In this document: positions 8,544 to 16,231 of the stretch, piece after piece
How the letters are laid out: the number at the start of each line of letters is the position of its first letter
Numbering within the stretch: the first letter of the stretch is position 1
IMG/VR virus record: IMGVR_UViG_3300028572_000028
Span: 1 to 21,449 of that record
From: a virus
Strand: one strand, 5' to 3'
Length of the DNA stretch: 21,449 bases
Translations under genes and position numbers: made by a program
Notes under the pieces: generated by a model
What the model was told of the DNA's origin: nothing
Seen by the model: the letters and a program-made list of their open reading frames with translations, nothing else
Database searches by the model: none

Positions 8544-9377
8544 TTACGCGGCCTTGGCAGTCGATTTCACGGGCAGGGCGTACATGCCGGCCTTTGTCAG
8601 AAACTCCGGGGGCAGGCGACTCAGGGAGAAGAGATACTGCGCGCTGCACGAACAGTAGACCTCCTCCCCCACCGCCGTGATTTCGTCGTAATACCCGTTC
8701 GGCCCGGCTTTCATCAAGCCCTTCTCGATGGCCCAATTTCCCCGGATGGCGTAGATTTTCTCATCCCGAGCCTTGTGGGTGTCCCGATAGTCGTAACCGG
8801 GGCGCCGCCAGGGTGAGTGCCAAATCAGCGCGATGGCGCCCGCATCGGTGGCCGTGATGTCGCGGATGGCTCCAATCAGTTTGTGGGTCTGGTCGATCAC
8901 TACCCGGCGCTCGATGAACGTCATCTGAGACAGCGGCTTGCGAATGGCATCCTTCTCAGCCTGCTTGTCCACCGCGCGCGAGCCACCGACGGGGATTGAG
9001 GTCGCCCACCCCTGAAACCGCCGCAGTGTCGTGCTCACCGCCTCCTGGCGGTTCAGGCTGATGAGGTTCGCGCTCGCCATGATTCGGCGGTCGAGTTCCT
9101 TGCGCAGCTTCGGCTTGACCTTCTCCAGCGTATAGCGCGACACCTCAGGCATGGAGTTCAGGATGCCGGCCTTCGTGACCAGGTGCTTGTAGCGGTCGCC
9201 CAGGACGCGCTTGAGTTCGCGCTCCGTCTCGGCCGGGGGCTTGAGTTGCAGCAGAGCGGCGCGGCGGATTCGGCCCACCCATTGGTCAAGTTGAGCCTGC
9301 GAGGTGAAGCCGAACGCCTGGAAGTGCGAAATTGCTGCGCTCACCTCCTGGTAGAAGGTCGGCGCCTTAGTCGCCAT
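8544..9377 (-). CDS. Phage head morphogenesis protein (MuF-like position)
   Basis: The product has 277 residues from the ATG at 9377 (MATKAPTFYQEVSAAISHF). A start 12 nt upstream is also possible. The C-terminal half has the block WRRPGYDYRDTHKARDEKIYAIRGNWA, then GYYDEITAVGEEVYCSCSAQYLFSLSRLP, which I recognise from minor head proteins encoded next to DUF1073 portals. His and paired Cys residues in that block could bind a metal or play a catalytic role; that is not established. Known: such proteins follow the portal and take part in head assembly or DNA ejection. Here an HNH endonuclease gene separates it from the portal, overlapping its start by 11 nt. Confidence 0.7.
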   Translation of the reverse strand: MATKAPTFYQEVSAAISHFQAFGFTSQAQLDQWVGRIRRAALLQLKPPAETERELKRVLGDRYKHLVTKAGILNSMPEVSRYTLEKVKPKLRKELDRRIMASANLISLNRQEAVSTTLRRFQGWATSIPVGGSRAVDKQAEKDAIRKPLSQMTFIERRVVIDQTHKLIGAIRDITATDAGAIALIWHSPWRRPGYDYRDTHKARDEKIYAIRGNWAIEKGLMKAGPNGYYDEITAVGEEVYCSCSAQYLFSLSRLPPEFLTKAGMYALPVKSTAKAA

Positions 9378-9966
9378 GAAGCGCCTCATCCATGCGATTC
9401 CTCTTGCTGCGGTTCTCGGATCGTGTGATCACCCGAAGATTGTCTTGGACGTGAAGGCCGCGAACACTGGCGCCATTGATCGGAACGATGTGATCCACCT
9501 CGTGACGAACCCCTGTTTCCTGGGTGAGTCGAGCTGCCTCCTTGTAGTATTCAAGCATCTTCTTTGGGTCAGCCCATGCCGGTGTCTGCTGCAGAACCAT
9601 CCCGCGACGCATGGCATTTGACGCCAGCACCCATATTTTCCCGCCTCCGTCATACCAGCGCATATGCGATTCTTTCTGCATCGCGGCACCCCTTGGTGTC
9701 ATCCGGTACTCACGCTGCCTTTCGCGTACTGCCGCTGGGTCTTTATCCCATTGAATCTTCGCCCTTGTTCGCCAGCGCTCCCTGTTGGCATCCACCCTTT
9801 CAGGGTCATGATTTCGCGCATACTGCCGCTCGCTTGAGCACTGTCGACAATGGCTGTGGTGACCATCCTTTAGCTCGGCCCTCTTGCGAAACTCGGAAAA
9901 TAGCTTGAGGATTCCGCAACTACTGCATGTTTTACCCGCCTTTGTCTGAGGAATCGCCGTCTTCAT
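9367..9966 (-). CDS. HNH endonuclease with N-terminal zinc-binding motif
   Basis: I take the ATG at 9966 (MKTAIPQTKAGKTCSSCG), giving 199 residues; an upstream start at 10020 would lengthen it to 217. Two Cys pairs near the N-terminus (CSSC and CRQC, about 32 residues apart) can bind zinc. A basic linker follows (YARNHDPERVDANRERWRTRAK), and the C-terminal HNH core is HEVDHIVPINGASVRGLHVQDNL with RSENRSKRN behind it. The gene overlaps the end of the portal gene by 35 nt and the next gene by 11 nt. Two 60-nt samples I counted inside it are 50 and 53 percent GC, against 65 percent in a sample from the portal, consistent with a mobile free-standing homing-type gene wedged between two head genes. 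Confidence 0.8.
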   Translation of the reverse strand: MKTAIPQTKAGKTCSSCGILKLFSEFRKRAELKDGHHSHCRQCSSERQYARNHDPERVDANRERWRTRAKIQWDKDPAAVRERQREYRMTPRGAAMQKESHMRWYDGGGKIWVLASNAMRRGMVLQQTPAWADPKKMLEYYKEAARLTQETGVRHEVDHIVPINGASVRGLHVQDNLRVITRSENRSKRNRMDEALHGD

Positions 9967-11362
9967 CACCGGGGGCTGCGGGAGTTGGTGGGACGTATTC
10001 TGCGAGCGCGTCATAGTCAATGATCAATGAGTTTGTGAATAGCTCATCCATGCCGGATAGAGCTTCTGCAAACCATTGTACGACGTTTGCCCGATTGACG
10101 GGGTCGACGACGGGAGCGAGCGCATTCAGAACATCAGTCATCGCCTTGAGTTTCTTCGCATTGCGCTCGGTCTTGACCGATTCCTCTTCTTTGATGAGGT
10201 CGGGCCACTCGCTGGCGAACAGGTCGCATGTCGCGAAGAACCACGTTTTGTAGTCTTTGCCGGCCAGTTCTTCCGGGTAGGCGTTTTGCAGCGCAGCAAA
10301 GAATTCCGGGTTCCACGCCCGGTGCATGGTGATCTTGTCGAAGAACTCGTAGAGCGGGTTCGTCTGCGTGCGGATGGCACTGATCGTCTGCACCACGGCC
10401 ATCATGTCTTGATCGCCGCTGGCGAGGCCCTTGGCGAAGCTCTCATCCTTGATGAGGATCGCTGGCACGTCCGTGGCCGCCGCAATGTCGGCGATGATGT
10501 TGTCCCGCGCCATGGTCAGCGCGCCATCGATGTTCTGTAGGTTCAGCGACTCGATGGCGTCATTCTGGCCGATGGACAGAACCTGATTGTTGCCGCCCTC
10601 CTTGAGCAGGTTGCGCTTGCGGCCGGTCGCCTTGTCCATGAGATTTGAGACGATGCTGCCGTTTTGCTGCACCTTCTCGATGAGCAGGCCCGCCTTGGAC
10701 GCCACCATGTCGTTCTGGATCATGGTGTTGATGTACGACTTCATCGGGTACAGCGCGCGCAGGAAAATCGAGCGGCCCGAGAAGCTGAAGCTGGACGACT
10801 GGTAGTCGAGGTAGACCGGGGTGCCGTGGAACACCGTGCGCGTGCGGCTCGAATGGTACGGCTGCCCGGCCGCCGTAATGTCCTGATTCGGCTTCTGGAA
10901 GTCCGGCGCGTTCGGGTTCTGGTTCGTGACGATGGAGCCCGACAGGTTCAGCGGGTCGAACGTGTTGAAATACAGATCGGGCTGGCTCGCCAGACTGAAC
11001 AGGTCAATCGGCTTGTCCGTGGGCACGTCCGGCAGGCCAAAGGCCACGGCACCGGCCCCATAGGCGCGCGACAGGTGCATGACGTCGCGGACGTGGTTGT
11101 CTACGCCCAGGCGCTCGTGCTCGTCGGTGAACGCCTTCACCAGAACCTCTTCTAGCGCGCCCGGGACATTGATCTTTCGGGGTTCGCCGATGGCAAGGGC
11201 CACCGGTTTTTCGACCACCTTGCCGCCAAGAATGTGGCAAGTCCACAACAGCTTGCAGGTGGAGTATCCGGGGATCGAACCCGGCACAATTTCGTCCGCG
11301 CACAGAATATCCATCAGCCCGGAGGTAACGCTAGTTGCGCTGGAAATCGAAATCATGCTCAT
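9932..11362 (-). CDS. Phage portal protein (DUF1073 type)
   Basis: The product has 476 residues, starting MSMISISSATSVTSGLMDILC. Recognisable blocks of DUF1073 portals include CHILGGKVVEKPV near residue 45, RDVMHLSRAYGAGAV near 92, ALYPMKSYINTMIQNDMV, and DVPAILIKDESFAKGLASGDQDM with the following helix. The C-terminus is acidic (PAAPGDEDGDSSDKGG). The portal forms the dodecameric ring through which DNA is packaged and to which the connectors bind. It lies 28 nt after the large terminase stop, the usual order. The length is ordinary for the family. A second ATG two codons in is equally possible as start. Codons 27-35 spell a near-perfect tRNA 3' end (see separate entry). Confidence 0.85.
   Translation of the reverse strand: MSMISISSATSVTSGLMDILCADEIVPGSIPGYSTCKLLWTCHILGGKVVEKPVALAIGEPRKINVPGALEEVLVKAFTDEHERLGVDNHVRDVMHLSRAYGAGAVAFGLPDVPTDKPIDLFSLASQPDLYFNTFDPLNLSGSIVTNQNPNAPDFQKPNQDITAAGQPYHSSRTRTVFHGTPVYLDYQSSSFSFSGRSIFLRALYPMKSYINTMIQNDMVASKAGLLIEKVQQNGSIVSNLMDKATGRKRNLLKEGGNNQVLSIGQNDAIESLNLQNIDGALTMARDNIIADIAAATDVPAILIKDESFAKGLASGDQDMMAVVQTISAIRTQTNPLYEFFDKITMHRAWNPEFFAALQNAYPEELAGKDYKTWFFATCDLFASEWPDLIKEEESVKTERNAKKLKAMTDVLNALAPVVDPVNRANVVQWFAEALSGMDELFTNSLIIDYDALAEYVPPTPAAPGDEDGDSSDKGG
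11258..11284 (-). other. tRNA 3'-end mimic inside the portal gene
   Basis: The minus strand reads CCGGG-TTCGATC-CCCGG (a perfect 5-bp T-stem with a 7-nt loop) and then ATACTCC-A-CC, the layout of T-arm, acceptor 3' strand, discriminator and CC. No matching GGAGTAT acceptor strand, D-arm or anticodon arm lies upstream, so it is not a tRNA gene. Confidence 0.4.
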
Positions 11363-11390: not shown

Positions 11391-12680
11391 CTAGCCTAGG
11401 GCGGAGGATTCTGCCAGCGCCAGGGCAATTGAATACGTCGCACAGTCAAGTAAGTCATCCTCGCGCTTGTAGGCGTCCTTGTCGCCGATGCGGAAGCGGG
11501 TTATCTGGTTCATGAGGTGATTCTCGGTGCGGCCCTTCCACTCCACCAGCTTTTCCAGGGCATGGCGGCTGATCTTCGCCTCACCGCGGTAGGCTGGGCC
11601 GCCCGCGATCAGCGCGCGCTCATCCTTGCCCTTCATCATGAGGTCGGAGGGGATCGCCTGGATAGGCCAGCCCTTGGACTTGGCCTGCTGGATCAGGACG
11701 ATGCCCCCAGCCGCGTCCTCAGCGAAGATGCCCAGCGATCCACTACGGGCGCCGCATTGCTTTGCAAGCTCCTCGCAGCGGGCCAGAACCTTCGGCGCCA
11801 GGCTCTCCAGCATGGCTGCGTCGATGCTGTGCATTTCATAGTCGAGCCACACCATTTTGTGGCCGTGGTATCGGCTGACGGAGCAATACAGGACGCCCGT
11901 CGCATCGTTGTTCGTGCCCGACTTCGCGGCGCAATCCATGATGGCGAATACGGCATCGCACTTCGTGGGATAGCCCACCGGCATCTTGTCTTCGTCAAGG
12001 AAGTATTCAGCTTTGAAGAATGTAGCTGAATCCCAGCTCACAAACTCGGCGGCGAACTCCTGTTTCCAGACGAGCGGATGCACCTTCATGCGCTCGGCCT
12101 CCAACTCGTCGGGTGGGACGTAGGGATTGGTCGAGGTCGGGGCGTGGAATTGCTTGAACCCTAGTTCGGGGTCGTGCCACGCCTGATAGAAGAAGTTATC
12201 CGGGTTCACCCCGTTCGGCGTCGAGAACAGCCAGAATGTCCCGCGCGTGGTCAGGAGGGTAGGCTTGATCGAACGGCGCCAGATTTCCAGCATCTGGCCG
12301 TCCTTGGAGAACGCGGCCTCATCCATCAGGCCCATGTGATACTCGCGCCCCCGGCCGGCCAGGTGGTTGTCCGTGGTCGCCCAGAAGTCCAGGAAACCGC
12401 CCGTCGTGGTGCGCATCTTGGCGTCATTCTTCGCCGCGATCCGCTTGATGGGCAGGAGCATTTCGTACAGCTCATCCCAGGGTTCGGCCCACTGCTTGTG
12501 CTCAGGCGTGAAGATTCCGACCTTGCGACCCTTGGCTGCAGCGTTGCCTGCGAGACAGGTCAGGAGCTTGGTTTTGCCCCATCATATTCGTCGGCCGCAA
12601 CATACTATGTTGAGCCGACTCCTCCTTTCAAAAATGTCCACCTGGCCGGCGTGGAGCGTGGGAAGAACGACGGTAGGCAT
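11391..12680 (-). pseudogene. terL: Terminase large subunit, broken in the Walker A motif
   Basis: The ATG at 12680 overlaps the upstream HNH stop (TAATG) and starts MPTVVLPTLHAGQVDIFERR. At codon 33 there is an in-frame TGA (12584-12582). The frame then resumes with WGKTKLLTCLAGNAA and is open for nearly 400 codons. Without the six bases ATATGA the motif would read CGRRWGKT, a normal terminase Walker A. Walker B is LMDEAA (D120, E121), and the C-terminal nuclease region has AIMDCAAKSGTNNDATG and DDLLDCATYS. The enzyme would cut and pump DNA into the capsid through the portal encoded next. The next ATG in frame (12461) lies beyond the P-loop, so as read no functional ATPase can be made. Sequencing error cannot be excluded. 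Confidence 0.8.
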
Positions 12681-13210
12681 TAGATGGTGCACCCTTCGTG
12701 GAGAAGCCGCTTCGCTTCAATGTAGGCCTCGTGCGCCTGGATGGCGGTCTCGAATCGGCCAAGGAACTTCCGCGTTCCGTTCGGTAGTTTGATTTCCGAC
12801 TTGAACCCACCGCGCTCGATATCAACGCCGGCACCAAGCAGGCCTGTCGAGTTCTTAGGCATGGCGCGCCGCATGTTCTGAGAGTTCATTCGCCGGGTAG
12901 CTGGGCGCAGATTGTCCAGTCGGTTGTTCAGCGGGTCGCCGTCTCGATGATCCACTAGGGGCGGCCATTCTCCGTAGGTCATGAACCACGCCAATCGGTG
13001 GCCCCGATATAGGCGGTAGTTGATGCCGATCAGGTAGAGCCATACATCCACCGCGCTACCGCCCGTGCCGGCCCTGGTATGGATGAATGCGCCCCCGGCT
13101 TTTGAACCTGCCGCCTCACCTCCGCGCGACTCTCGCCAGGTAAACAACCCCTCGTCGGGATCGTATGTAAGAAGTCGATGCGCTTGATCGAATGTGATTA
13201 GTTCGGCCAT
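12680..13210 (-). CDS. HNH endonuclease with AP2-like DNA-binding domain
   Basis: The product has 176 residues, starting MAELITFDQAHRLLTYDPDEG. The middle carries the HNH_3-type core: HRLAWFMTYGEWPPLVDHRDGDPLNNRLDNLRPATRR. The C-terminal 50 residues (STGLLGAGVDIERGGFKSEIKL...KFLGRFETAIQAHEAY) are an AP2-like domain, which binds DNA through a three-stranded sheet. This pairing is typical of phage free-standing homing endonucleases. The gene sits 24 nt after the small terminase stop, and its own stop overlaps the large terminase start, so it lies exactly between two genes that are normally adjacent. It may cut terminase alleles lacking it; that is inference. There is no room for a group I intron around it. 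Confidence 0.85.
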   Translation of the reverse strand: MAELITFDQAHRLLTYDPDEGLFTWRESRGGEAAGSKAGGAFIHTRAGTGGSAVDVWLYLIGINYRLYRGHRLAWFMTYGEWPPLVDHRDGDPLNNRLDNLRPATRRMNSQNMRRAMPKNSTGLLGAGVDIERGGFKSEIKLPNGTRKFLGRFETAIQAHEAYIEAKRLLHEGCTI

Positions 13211-13234: not shown

Positions 13235-13753
13235 CTAGTCTGGCATCCCGCCGCGAATATCAACGCCTTCGCGCTCGCCGGATTCACCCATGGATTCGAT
13301 GGCGGATGCCATTCTCATGGGGGCCTCTACAGAATCATTTGCCATCCGGGTAAGTCTAGAAACCGACTTCAACCGCTCGATGGTCTTTTCCTCAAGCATC
13401 GCCGTCTCGTCAACCTTTGAAAGCTCAGTCTGGGACATGGATGCAAGGCGCATGAAGTTTCCAGACAGCATTTCAAACCCGGTCGCGAGGTTTGCGCGCA
13501 TCCTTTGAATCCGCGCAGCATGGTCTTGAGCAGCGACCTGCGAAGAAATCGGGAGGGCTTTCAACGCGATATCTGTTGCAACTATTTGATTTGCAACAGC
13601 TTTTATTTGTCGGGCGGAATTTCCGATGTTTCCGCGCAGGGTTACTTCCGAAACTTTCGCCTCTTTGGCGAGCGAGCGGATGGACTCCCCTGCGAGGTGT
13701 CGATCCTGGTAGTGCTTGATCTGCTGCGGAGTCAGCTTTGCTTTGCGGCCCAT
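13235..13753 (-). CDS. terS: Probable terminase small subunit (DNA-binding)
   Basis: The product has 172 residues, starting MGRKAKLTPQQIKHYQDRH. Residues 8-40 form a helix-turn-helix of resolvase style (AGESIRSLAKEAKVSEVTLRGNI), suitable for recognising the packaging site. The rest is predicted helical with IKAVANQIVATDIALKALPIS and the C-terminal LKSVSRLTRMANDS block, which I recognise from small terminase-like proteins beside terminases of this type. It would bind phage DNA at pac or cos and hand it to the large subunit. The gene is separated from the large subunit only by the inserted HNH gene. A 9-bp inverted repeat lies inside it. Function is inferred from family resemblance and position. 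Confidence 0.7.
   Translation of the reverse strand: MGRKAKLTPQQIKHYQDRHLAGESIRSLAKEAKVSEVTLRGNIGNSARQIKAVANQIVATDIALKALPISSQVAAQDHAARIQRMRANLATGFEMLSGNFMRLASMSQTELSKVDETAMLEEKTIERLKSVSRLTRMANDSVEAPMRMASAIESMGESGEREGVDIRGGMPD
13573..13599 (-). repeat. 9-bp inverted repeat inside the small terminase gene
   Basis: CTGTTGCAA (13573-13581) and TTGCAACAG (13591-13599) are exact reverse complements, 9 nt apart, in a visibly AT-rich part of the gene. It is a possible protein binding site. Confidence 0.5.
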
Positions 13754-15478: not shown

Positions 15479-16231
15479 TTATGCCGCCGCCAGCGAGCAC
15501 AGCGTGGCCGCACGCTCCATGATGGCGCTGGTCGGCGCATCCGCTTGCGGCAGTACGTCATCGAGGTAGCGGAGGCCGGCGTCGAACAGCTTTGCCTTCA
15601 ACTCGTCGCACTTCGGGCCGATGAATTCCATCGCCTTCTTCTTGGCGTAGGCGTAGGGGTCGGCGTAGGCGTAGGCGTCGGCGTCGGCGTAGGCGTCGGC
15701 GTAGGCGTCGGCGATGGCGTCGGCGTCGGCGTAGGCGTCGGCGATGGCGTCGGCGATGGCGTCGGCGTCGGCGTCGGGGATGGCGTAGGCGTAGGCGTCG
15801 GCGATGGCGATGGAGATGGAGATGGAGATGGAGATGGAGATGGCGATGGCGATGGCGTCGGCGTCGGCGTCGGCGTCGGCGTTCTTCAGTTCGGTGCGCC
15901 ATGCGTTGATGATTTCCTGACATTCGGTGCCGTGCTGGCGAAGGCGTGCCCGGTCGCGGTTCAGCACTTCCTTGTTCATCGTCGCACTGCCCATGGCGCG
16001 CATGACAAAAGGAAGCAGGCGCTGTCGCTGCTCGTCGTTGCCAAAGTCATTGAGTTTGATCGCCATCGGCCGCACGGTGATGCGCACGCACGGCGAATGA
16101 TCGGTGATCTGCGATTCGCCGTTCAGGTAGGCGATGACATCCATAAAGCATCCCCGCCCCGTGGCACCGATGTCGCCGTGATGACCCGAGAGAAGGCGGA
16201 TGGGGGCGATGTAATCGGGGACGATGTTCAT
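15479..16231 (-). CDS. Phage protein with long Ala-Asp/Ile/Tyr dipeptide tract
   Basis: The product has 250 residues. Residues 1-117 are an ordinary folded-looking domain with VIAYLNGESQITDHSPCVRI, then KLNDFGNDEQRQRLLPFVMRAMGS, a pattern (L-x-GE...D-x-PxCV...ND...R-x-x-LLP) I loosely recall from uncharacterised phage proteins. Residues 118-195 are 39 dipeptides: Ala or Ser (Pro twice) alternating with Asp, Ile or Tyr. The last 55 residues are helical (KKKAMEFIGPKCDELKAKLFDAGLRYLDDVL). A CGGAGA site precedes the ATG, and the gene has its own strong promoter and long leader. The strict small/large alternation favours an extended or beta arrangement, as in silk-like repeats. Function unknown; I see no signal peptide or catalytic motif. 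Confidence 0.75.
   Translation of the reverse strand: MNIVPDYIAPIRLLSGHHGDIGATGRGCFMDVIAYLNGESQITDHSPCVRITVRPMAIKLNDFGNDEQRQRLLPFVMRAMGSATMNKEVLNRDRARLRQHGTECQEIINAWRTELKNADADADADAIAIAISISISISISIAIADAYAYAIPDADADAIADAIADAYADADAIADAYADAYADADAYAYADPYAYAKKKAMEFIGPKCDELKAKLFDAGLRYLDDVLPQADAPTSAIMERAATLCSLAAA
15647..15880 (-). repeat. 234-bp hexanucleotide repeat tract
   Basis: Thirty-nine six-base units, written on the plus strand as GCGTCG, GCGTAG, GCGATG or GAGATG variants. Runs occur, such as five consecutive Ser-Ile units. Because the unit is a multiple of three, gain or loss of units changes protein length without breaking the frame. Confidence 0.9.

Follow-up and report, generated by a model that had tools for sequence, protein, structure and literature searches.

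Most recoding sites known in phages belong to structural genes or to gene 60 of phage T4. The HNH endonuclease gene mobA of T4 adjoins gene 60, and the bypassed 50-nt insert of that gene has been proposed to protect it from the nuclease (PMC5009743; PMC2988022). A putative bypass has also been described in the terminase of Streptomyces phage phiHau3, where it was proposed to exploit the UUA codon, which is rare in Streptomyces (PMC5009743), and natural hopping over an in-frame stop was not known at the time of that review (Atkins et al. 2016; PMC5009743). UUU_CGN is a published motif for +1 frameshifting in influenza A virus (PA-X) and in plant amalgaviruses (PMC5052127).

We analysed a viral DNA of 21,449 nt (IMG/VR record IMGVR_UViG_3300028572_000028; hereafter the window), in which the gene of the terminase large subunit (terL; protein TerL) carries six extra bases with an in-frame stop within its Walker A codons. 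As in T4, the interrupted gene adjoins a free-standing nuclease gene (here HNH_3), the insert lies in a conserved part of the gene, and relatives without the nuclease lack the insert. Unlike in T4, the gene encodes a terminase and not a topoisomerase, the insert has 6 nt and stays in frame, take-off and landing codons are not fully matched, the bypass itself is putative, and TerL interruptions recur in many lineages with several families of nucleases. The terL of phiHau3 (L327 2329-3995) has a 10-nt insert between KGWG and KDP when compared with phage R4 (L369), which places its interruption, like that of the window, in the Walker A region; however, this TerL belongs to a different family and its HNH gene is nearby, not directly adjacent. 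The phiHau3 neighbourhood contains a tRNA-Trp gene besides the HNH gene. TerL inteins likewise mark the P-loop as a target of mobile elements, and one relative (L036, about 700-1750) has K and T of Walker A separated by an intein-like insert (CGRRWGK, then ALHVDTPLP...PTHN, then T). The window insert consists of two codons with nothing to splice, and an intein or intron was rejected because 6 nt are too short for splicing. Eight interrupted relatives (L106, L146, L316, L113, L124, L160, L154 and L164) contain UUU_CGG followed by a +1 frame, as in the UUU_CGN systems, but the window has CGA ATA TGA TGG without UUU_C, and the phages have bacterial hosts, their +1 frameshifting being predicted from sequence.

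The six-base insert in terL of the window

The coding strand reads TGC GGC CGA CGA ATA TGA TGG GGC AAA ACC (translated C G R R I stop W G K T; 12599..12570), exactly as an earlier note on this DNA had read it, and the note was also right about the frame and the two extra codons. The extra bases, ATATGA, occupy 12587..12582; GAATAT and AATATG are equivalent, so their exact position is uncertain by a few bases. From the ATG the frame runs open to the insert, and from WGKT it is open once more as far as the stop (395 residues counted from GKT). The insert, said by the earlier note to lie less than 100 nt from the end of the HNH gene, is 93 nt from its stop (Table 1).

Table 1. Features of the terminase locus in the window
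Feature	Position	Strand	Basis or remark
terL, whole gene	12680..11391	minus	start ATG 12680
Walker A / P-loop codons, CGRR-(I-stop)-WGKT	12570..12599	minus	translation and TerL alignment
In-frame insert ATATGA (codons ATA, TGA), within Walker A codons	12582..12587	minus	alignment; identical in L002, L003, L004
terL 5' part, MPTVVLPTLHAGQVDIFERRSRLNIVCCGRR, ATG at 12680	12588..12680	minus	
terL 3' part, WGKT to stop; terminase large subunit phrog_2	11391..12581	minus	PHROGs
Candidate take-off codon CGA; candidate landing codon TGA	12590-12588; 12584-12582	minus	putative hop
Free-standing HNH_3 endonuclease gene, immediately 5' of terL; its stop overlaps the terL start (TAATG)	12680..13210	minus	Pfam, PHROGs
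Small DNA-binding protein, terminase small subunit position	13235..13753	minus	position; weak phrog_125 match; synteny with TerS of relatives
Portal protein gene, intact, downstream of terL	9932..11362	minus	

The similarity of the window TerL to other terminases covers both the ATPase and the nuclease domain, and in an alignment with eight TerLs (42-51% identity over the full length) two extra columns appear in the window only, the others having CGRR-(W/F)GKT without extra codons; the P-loop without ATATGA is thus the usual terminase motif, as had been proposed. As read, the Walker A motif is interrupted, unlike what a functional large subunit requires. The earlier view that, as read, packaging depends on some way past the stop was fair, and bypass or readthrough is the leading interpretation. 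Of the frames that can follow the six bases, only the 0 frame yields WGKT; a simple +1 or -1 shift is therefore no explanation for the window. At the site this phage uses two infrequent or rare codons, AUA (2.8% of Ile) and CGA (12.7% of Arg). UGA serves as an ordinary stop, ending 13 of the 27 genes, and neither the window nor any of eleven related loci gave a tRNA gene; on these two grounds an altered genetic code was rejected.

The insert is real. A scan of IMG/VR with the terL 3' part recovered three more contigs, from the metagenomes 3300028867, 3300029954 and 3300028552, which are 99.98-100% identical to the window over 5.8-7.3 kb and carry the same six bases; variation within this population is almost absent. 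The window being a metagenome contig, a sequencing or assembly artefact could have been suspected, as the earlier note did, but four assemblies, each from another metagenome, share the insert exactly, so it is not a sequencing error, and five other interrupted lineages also have replicate contigs; we therefore reject an artefact as extremely improbable.

P-loop interruptions across phage terminases

The window belongs to a wider pattern of TerL interruptions, which is apparently undescribed; literature searches on terminases combining a programmed frameshift with Walker A turned up no such case. Within the Walker A codons, no fewer than 14 IMG/VR lineages of TerL, from several TerL families, are interrupted by +1 (mostly CGA_UUU_CGG), by +6 with one or more stops, by +8 or by +11; those outside the 80 closest TerLs came from pattern scans and were verified by HMM or PHROGs together with open frames on either side. 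Among the 80 TerLs of IMG/VR closest to the window, the P-loop is uninterrupted in 70 contigs, and frame disruptions occur in three lineages, at the P-loop only, the chance that two further disruptions coincide there being about 3e-4. The sister of the window on the tree (L014-L016; support 100/100) reads CGC AGG TTT C GGA AAA ACA (+1), and the HNH gene of L014 and L016 is that of the window, at 88% identity. L040/L041 have TGG GGG G AAG (+1), UUU_CGG with +1 is found in L108 (completed as L316), L113, L146, L164, L124, L160 and L154/L169, and further interruptions are a +1 G in L346/L347, +8 in L355 (stop directly after CGC) and +11 in L348. The tree of the window family requires at least five changes between interrupted and uninterrupted.

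A second six-nt stop insert, CGA-TGATGA-TGG, is present in L309/L310, whose TerL is unrelated to that of the window. In these two, about the first 150 TerL residues and TGATGA are common and the nuclease domain differs, as in a mosaic gene. Two lineages of a TerL family other than that of the window (L340, 4108-4136; L345, 8682-8710) have six sense bases, AAACGC (K-R), at the same point of the P-loop with the frame open, and TGATGA of L310 aligns with K-R of L345. The earlier note had held that functional terminases naturally carrying two extra residues here would speak against its reading; CGRR-KR-WGKT in two lineages bears this out in part, but the stop of the window still needs decoding. 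The inserts of four lineages end in bases that repeat the preceding ones (GA in the window and in L310, GC in L355, G in L346).

The link between insert and HNH gene, suggested earlier, is supported by association, cutting itself being a conjecture. Four lineages (window, L106/L139, L146 and L346/L347) have the HNH subfamily of the window immediately 5' of terL, and the P-loop is interrupted in all four, by +6 with stop, +1 T, +1 T and +1 G, respectively; their HNH proteins end in ...HEGCTI, and the gene end is near or overlaps the terL start. The gene called HNH-AP2 before is indeed of HNH type (Pfam HNH_3; phrog_99, HNH endonuclease), whereas the AP2 part was seen in the C-terminus by eye and had no Pfam match. 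An HNH gene directly 5' of terL was found in 4/7 interrupted versus 0/38 uninterrupted lineages of the window's family (p = 2e-4), and an HNH-type gene in about 7/13 versus 0/38 overall (p ~3e-5, the unknown case counted as negative). The 38 are the unique uninterrupted lineages with enough upstream sequence, and in all of them the gene directly 5' of terL appears to encode a TerS-like or a small helix-turn-helix protein (19 assigned by profile search, the rest by translations and an HNH search). Nucleases of other kinds occupy this place in L160 (another HNH_3), L154 (endonuclease VII-like with a NUMOD-like domain) and L310 (HNH); L124 has a methylase, the L113 contig ends too near terL for its 5' gene to be read, and L164, L316, L127, L355 and L348 are without HNH; overall, about half of the interrupted lineages have no HNH gene beside terL. 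A counter-case is Vibrio phage 1.157.O, whose TerL has an uninterrupted P-loop despite a related HNH gene upstream. The +1 site is kept and the HNH gene is absent in L015/L134; L015 and L016 differ chiefly over the first 48 nt of terL and the sequence 5' of it (recombination border at about nt 48), as expected if one recombination event separated the pair. Sliding identity between the window and L139 gave no sharp border of a homing tract, the similarity of the HNH gene being slightly above that of terS and terL.

The +1 class shows a preference of sequence. CGA precedes UUU in 7/8 interrupted versus 13/58 uninterrupted lineages (p = 6e-4), and Phe-type loops are over-represented relative to Trp-type loops among the +1 cases (p = 0.006), W-type loops being commoner overall but rarely +1. 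In uninterrupted loops, TTT is commoner than TTC (7:3). Scans for UUU_T, the sequence that a T placed before TTT would create, and for UUU_A and UUU_G as +1 sites found no TerL, although TTT is the more frequent codon. These figures come from targeted scans, and the notion that UUUC is the sole kind of +1 site was dropped as partly a product of the search pattern, which among insertions before TTC covered only T. RNA structures flanking the interruption sites gave no consistent signal.

The downstream frame of pairs sharing a broken P-loop is under strong purifying selection (dN/dS 0.03-0.07), which is hard to square with dead genes. L122/L127, with the same break, differ by 34.2 synonymous versus 4.8 non-synonymous changes (dN/dS 0.035), and L316/L113, sisters on the tree and again with the same break, have dN/dS 0.07 at dS about 2.4; the proteins of L124/L160 are 69% identical with synonymous sites saturated, and L106/L134 show 3 synonymous versus 0 non-synonymous differences. 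Recombination with uninterrupted strains could contribute to this signal or mimic it. A scan of 84,980 species genomes in GTDB, covering the CGA_UUU_CGG form only, gave 112 matches and no TerL, a mild argument against a decayed prophage. Ordinary decay of this kind, which the earlier note had listed, would account for an essential motif that is broken as read. It is, however, disfavoured and very unlikely, because there is only one break site, which recurs site-specifically, because selection persists in the broken pairs and because the scanned form had no TerL in GTDB; the same break in four assemblies and the open state of every other recognised gene of the window also stand against it.

Proposed decoding of the interrupted terminase

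The explanation that we prefer, and to which we give about an even chance, is that the P-loop is a target of HNH homing endonucleases, that the inserts are marks of immunity or repair, and that TerL is still made by recoding. The recurrent site would be the Walker A codons between R-R and W/F-G-K-T. The HNH protein of the window would be a free-standing homing endonuclease, its likely target the P-loop sequence as found uninterrupted in related phages, and the insert (or the +1, +8 or +11 change in relatives) would mark an allele that carries, or has met, such an enzyme and that the changed P-loop sequence has made uncleavable. The interruption probably forces the ribosome into a non-standard decoding of TerL; small amounts of the protein might suffice, some ribosomes decoding across the interruption so that TerL is still produced. 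In most relatives this would be a +1 slip at UUU_CGG. In the window phage we infer one of two modes, either a hop over six bases from CGA to UGA, resuming at TGG, or decoding of UGA as an amino acid, with two extra residues in the loop. CGA and UGA match at positions 2 and 3, and at position 1 a G-U wobble may form; L310 has the same pair. The explanation draws on the insert common to four assemblies, the recurrence at the P-loop in several TerL families, the HNH association, purifying selection in pairs with a broken P-loop, the UUU_C and CGA preference of +1 sites, and the precedents of T4 and phiHau3. Several observations stand against this explanation: UGA is a normal stop in the window phage, the window has no tRNA, no consistent RNA structure flanks the sites, insert sizes vary as expected of scars, about half of the interrupted lineages have no adjacent HNH gene, and Vibrio phage 1.157.O is uninterrupted despite its HNH gene.

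Readthrough of UGA is one of the two modes within the preferred explanation but is weighed apart, since its protein would differ: the stop would be read as an amino acid and I-x added to the loop. Judging from the K-R lineages, two extra loop residues may be tolerated, and the alignment of TGATGA with K-R points in the same direction; readthrough nevertheless has to contend with the normal use of UGA as a stop and with a window without suppressor tRNA, and it fails to explain the +1, +8 and +11 relatives, which makes it a doubtful possibility. If instead the P-loop was cut by the HNH enzyme or another nuclease and end joining inserted the bases, the insert would be a repair scar only, terL would be dead, and such genomes would persist as prophages or be packaged by the TerL of a co-infecting relative. 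The sizes 1, 6, 8 and 11 at one point, the HNH association and the insert ends that repeat preceding bases in four lineages, as fill-in of a staggered cut could give, would all suit a scar; low dN/dS in pairs with a broken P-loop, persistence of the insert in several samples, the GTDB result for one interrupted-site form and the clear preference of +1 sites for UUU_C and CGA do not, and we consider a mere scar unlikely, though by no means negligible.

Interruptions recur at one point of the ATP-binding loop of the packaging motor, in several TerL families and beside HNH nucleases of several families. In a speculative and rather unlikely extension of the preferred explanation, the Walker A codons of phage terminases might be a general battleground of free-standing homing endonucleases, with immunity inserts that are variously recoded (+1 at CGA_UUU_CGG, hops, readthrough), and the window might be the first natural hop over an in-frame stop. 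If the preferred explanation is confirmed, it would show how homing endonucleases bring about new recoding signals in an essential gene, provide short hops and +1 sites that can be tested in bacteria, and account for the cutting or loss of TerL by gene callers in some phages.

Other genes of the window

Between the portal and head-morphogenesis genes lies another free-standing endonuclease gene (9367-10020, minus strand; endonuclease VII/HNH-like, phrog_1035), and the contigs L002 and L003 both stop near it, at window position 9298, which suggests strain variation. An ORF at 15479-16231 (minus strand) has a long Ala-Asp / Ala-Ile dipeptide repeat and is open on both strands, mirrored, and the ORF at the contig end (20785-21447, minus strand) has a pentapeptide-repeat-like N-terminal region. 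In the relative Rac-SA53 (L010 246-1386), annotated enterotoxin genes flank the terminase.
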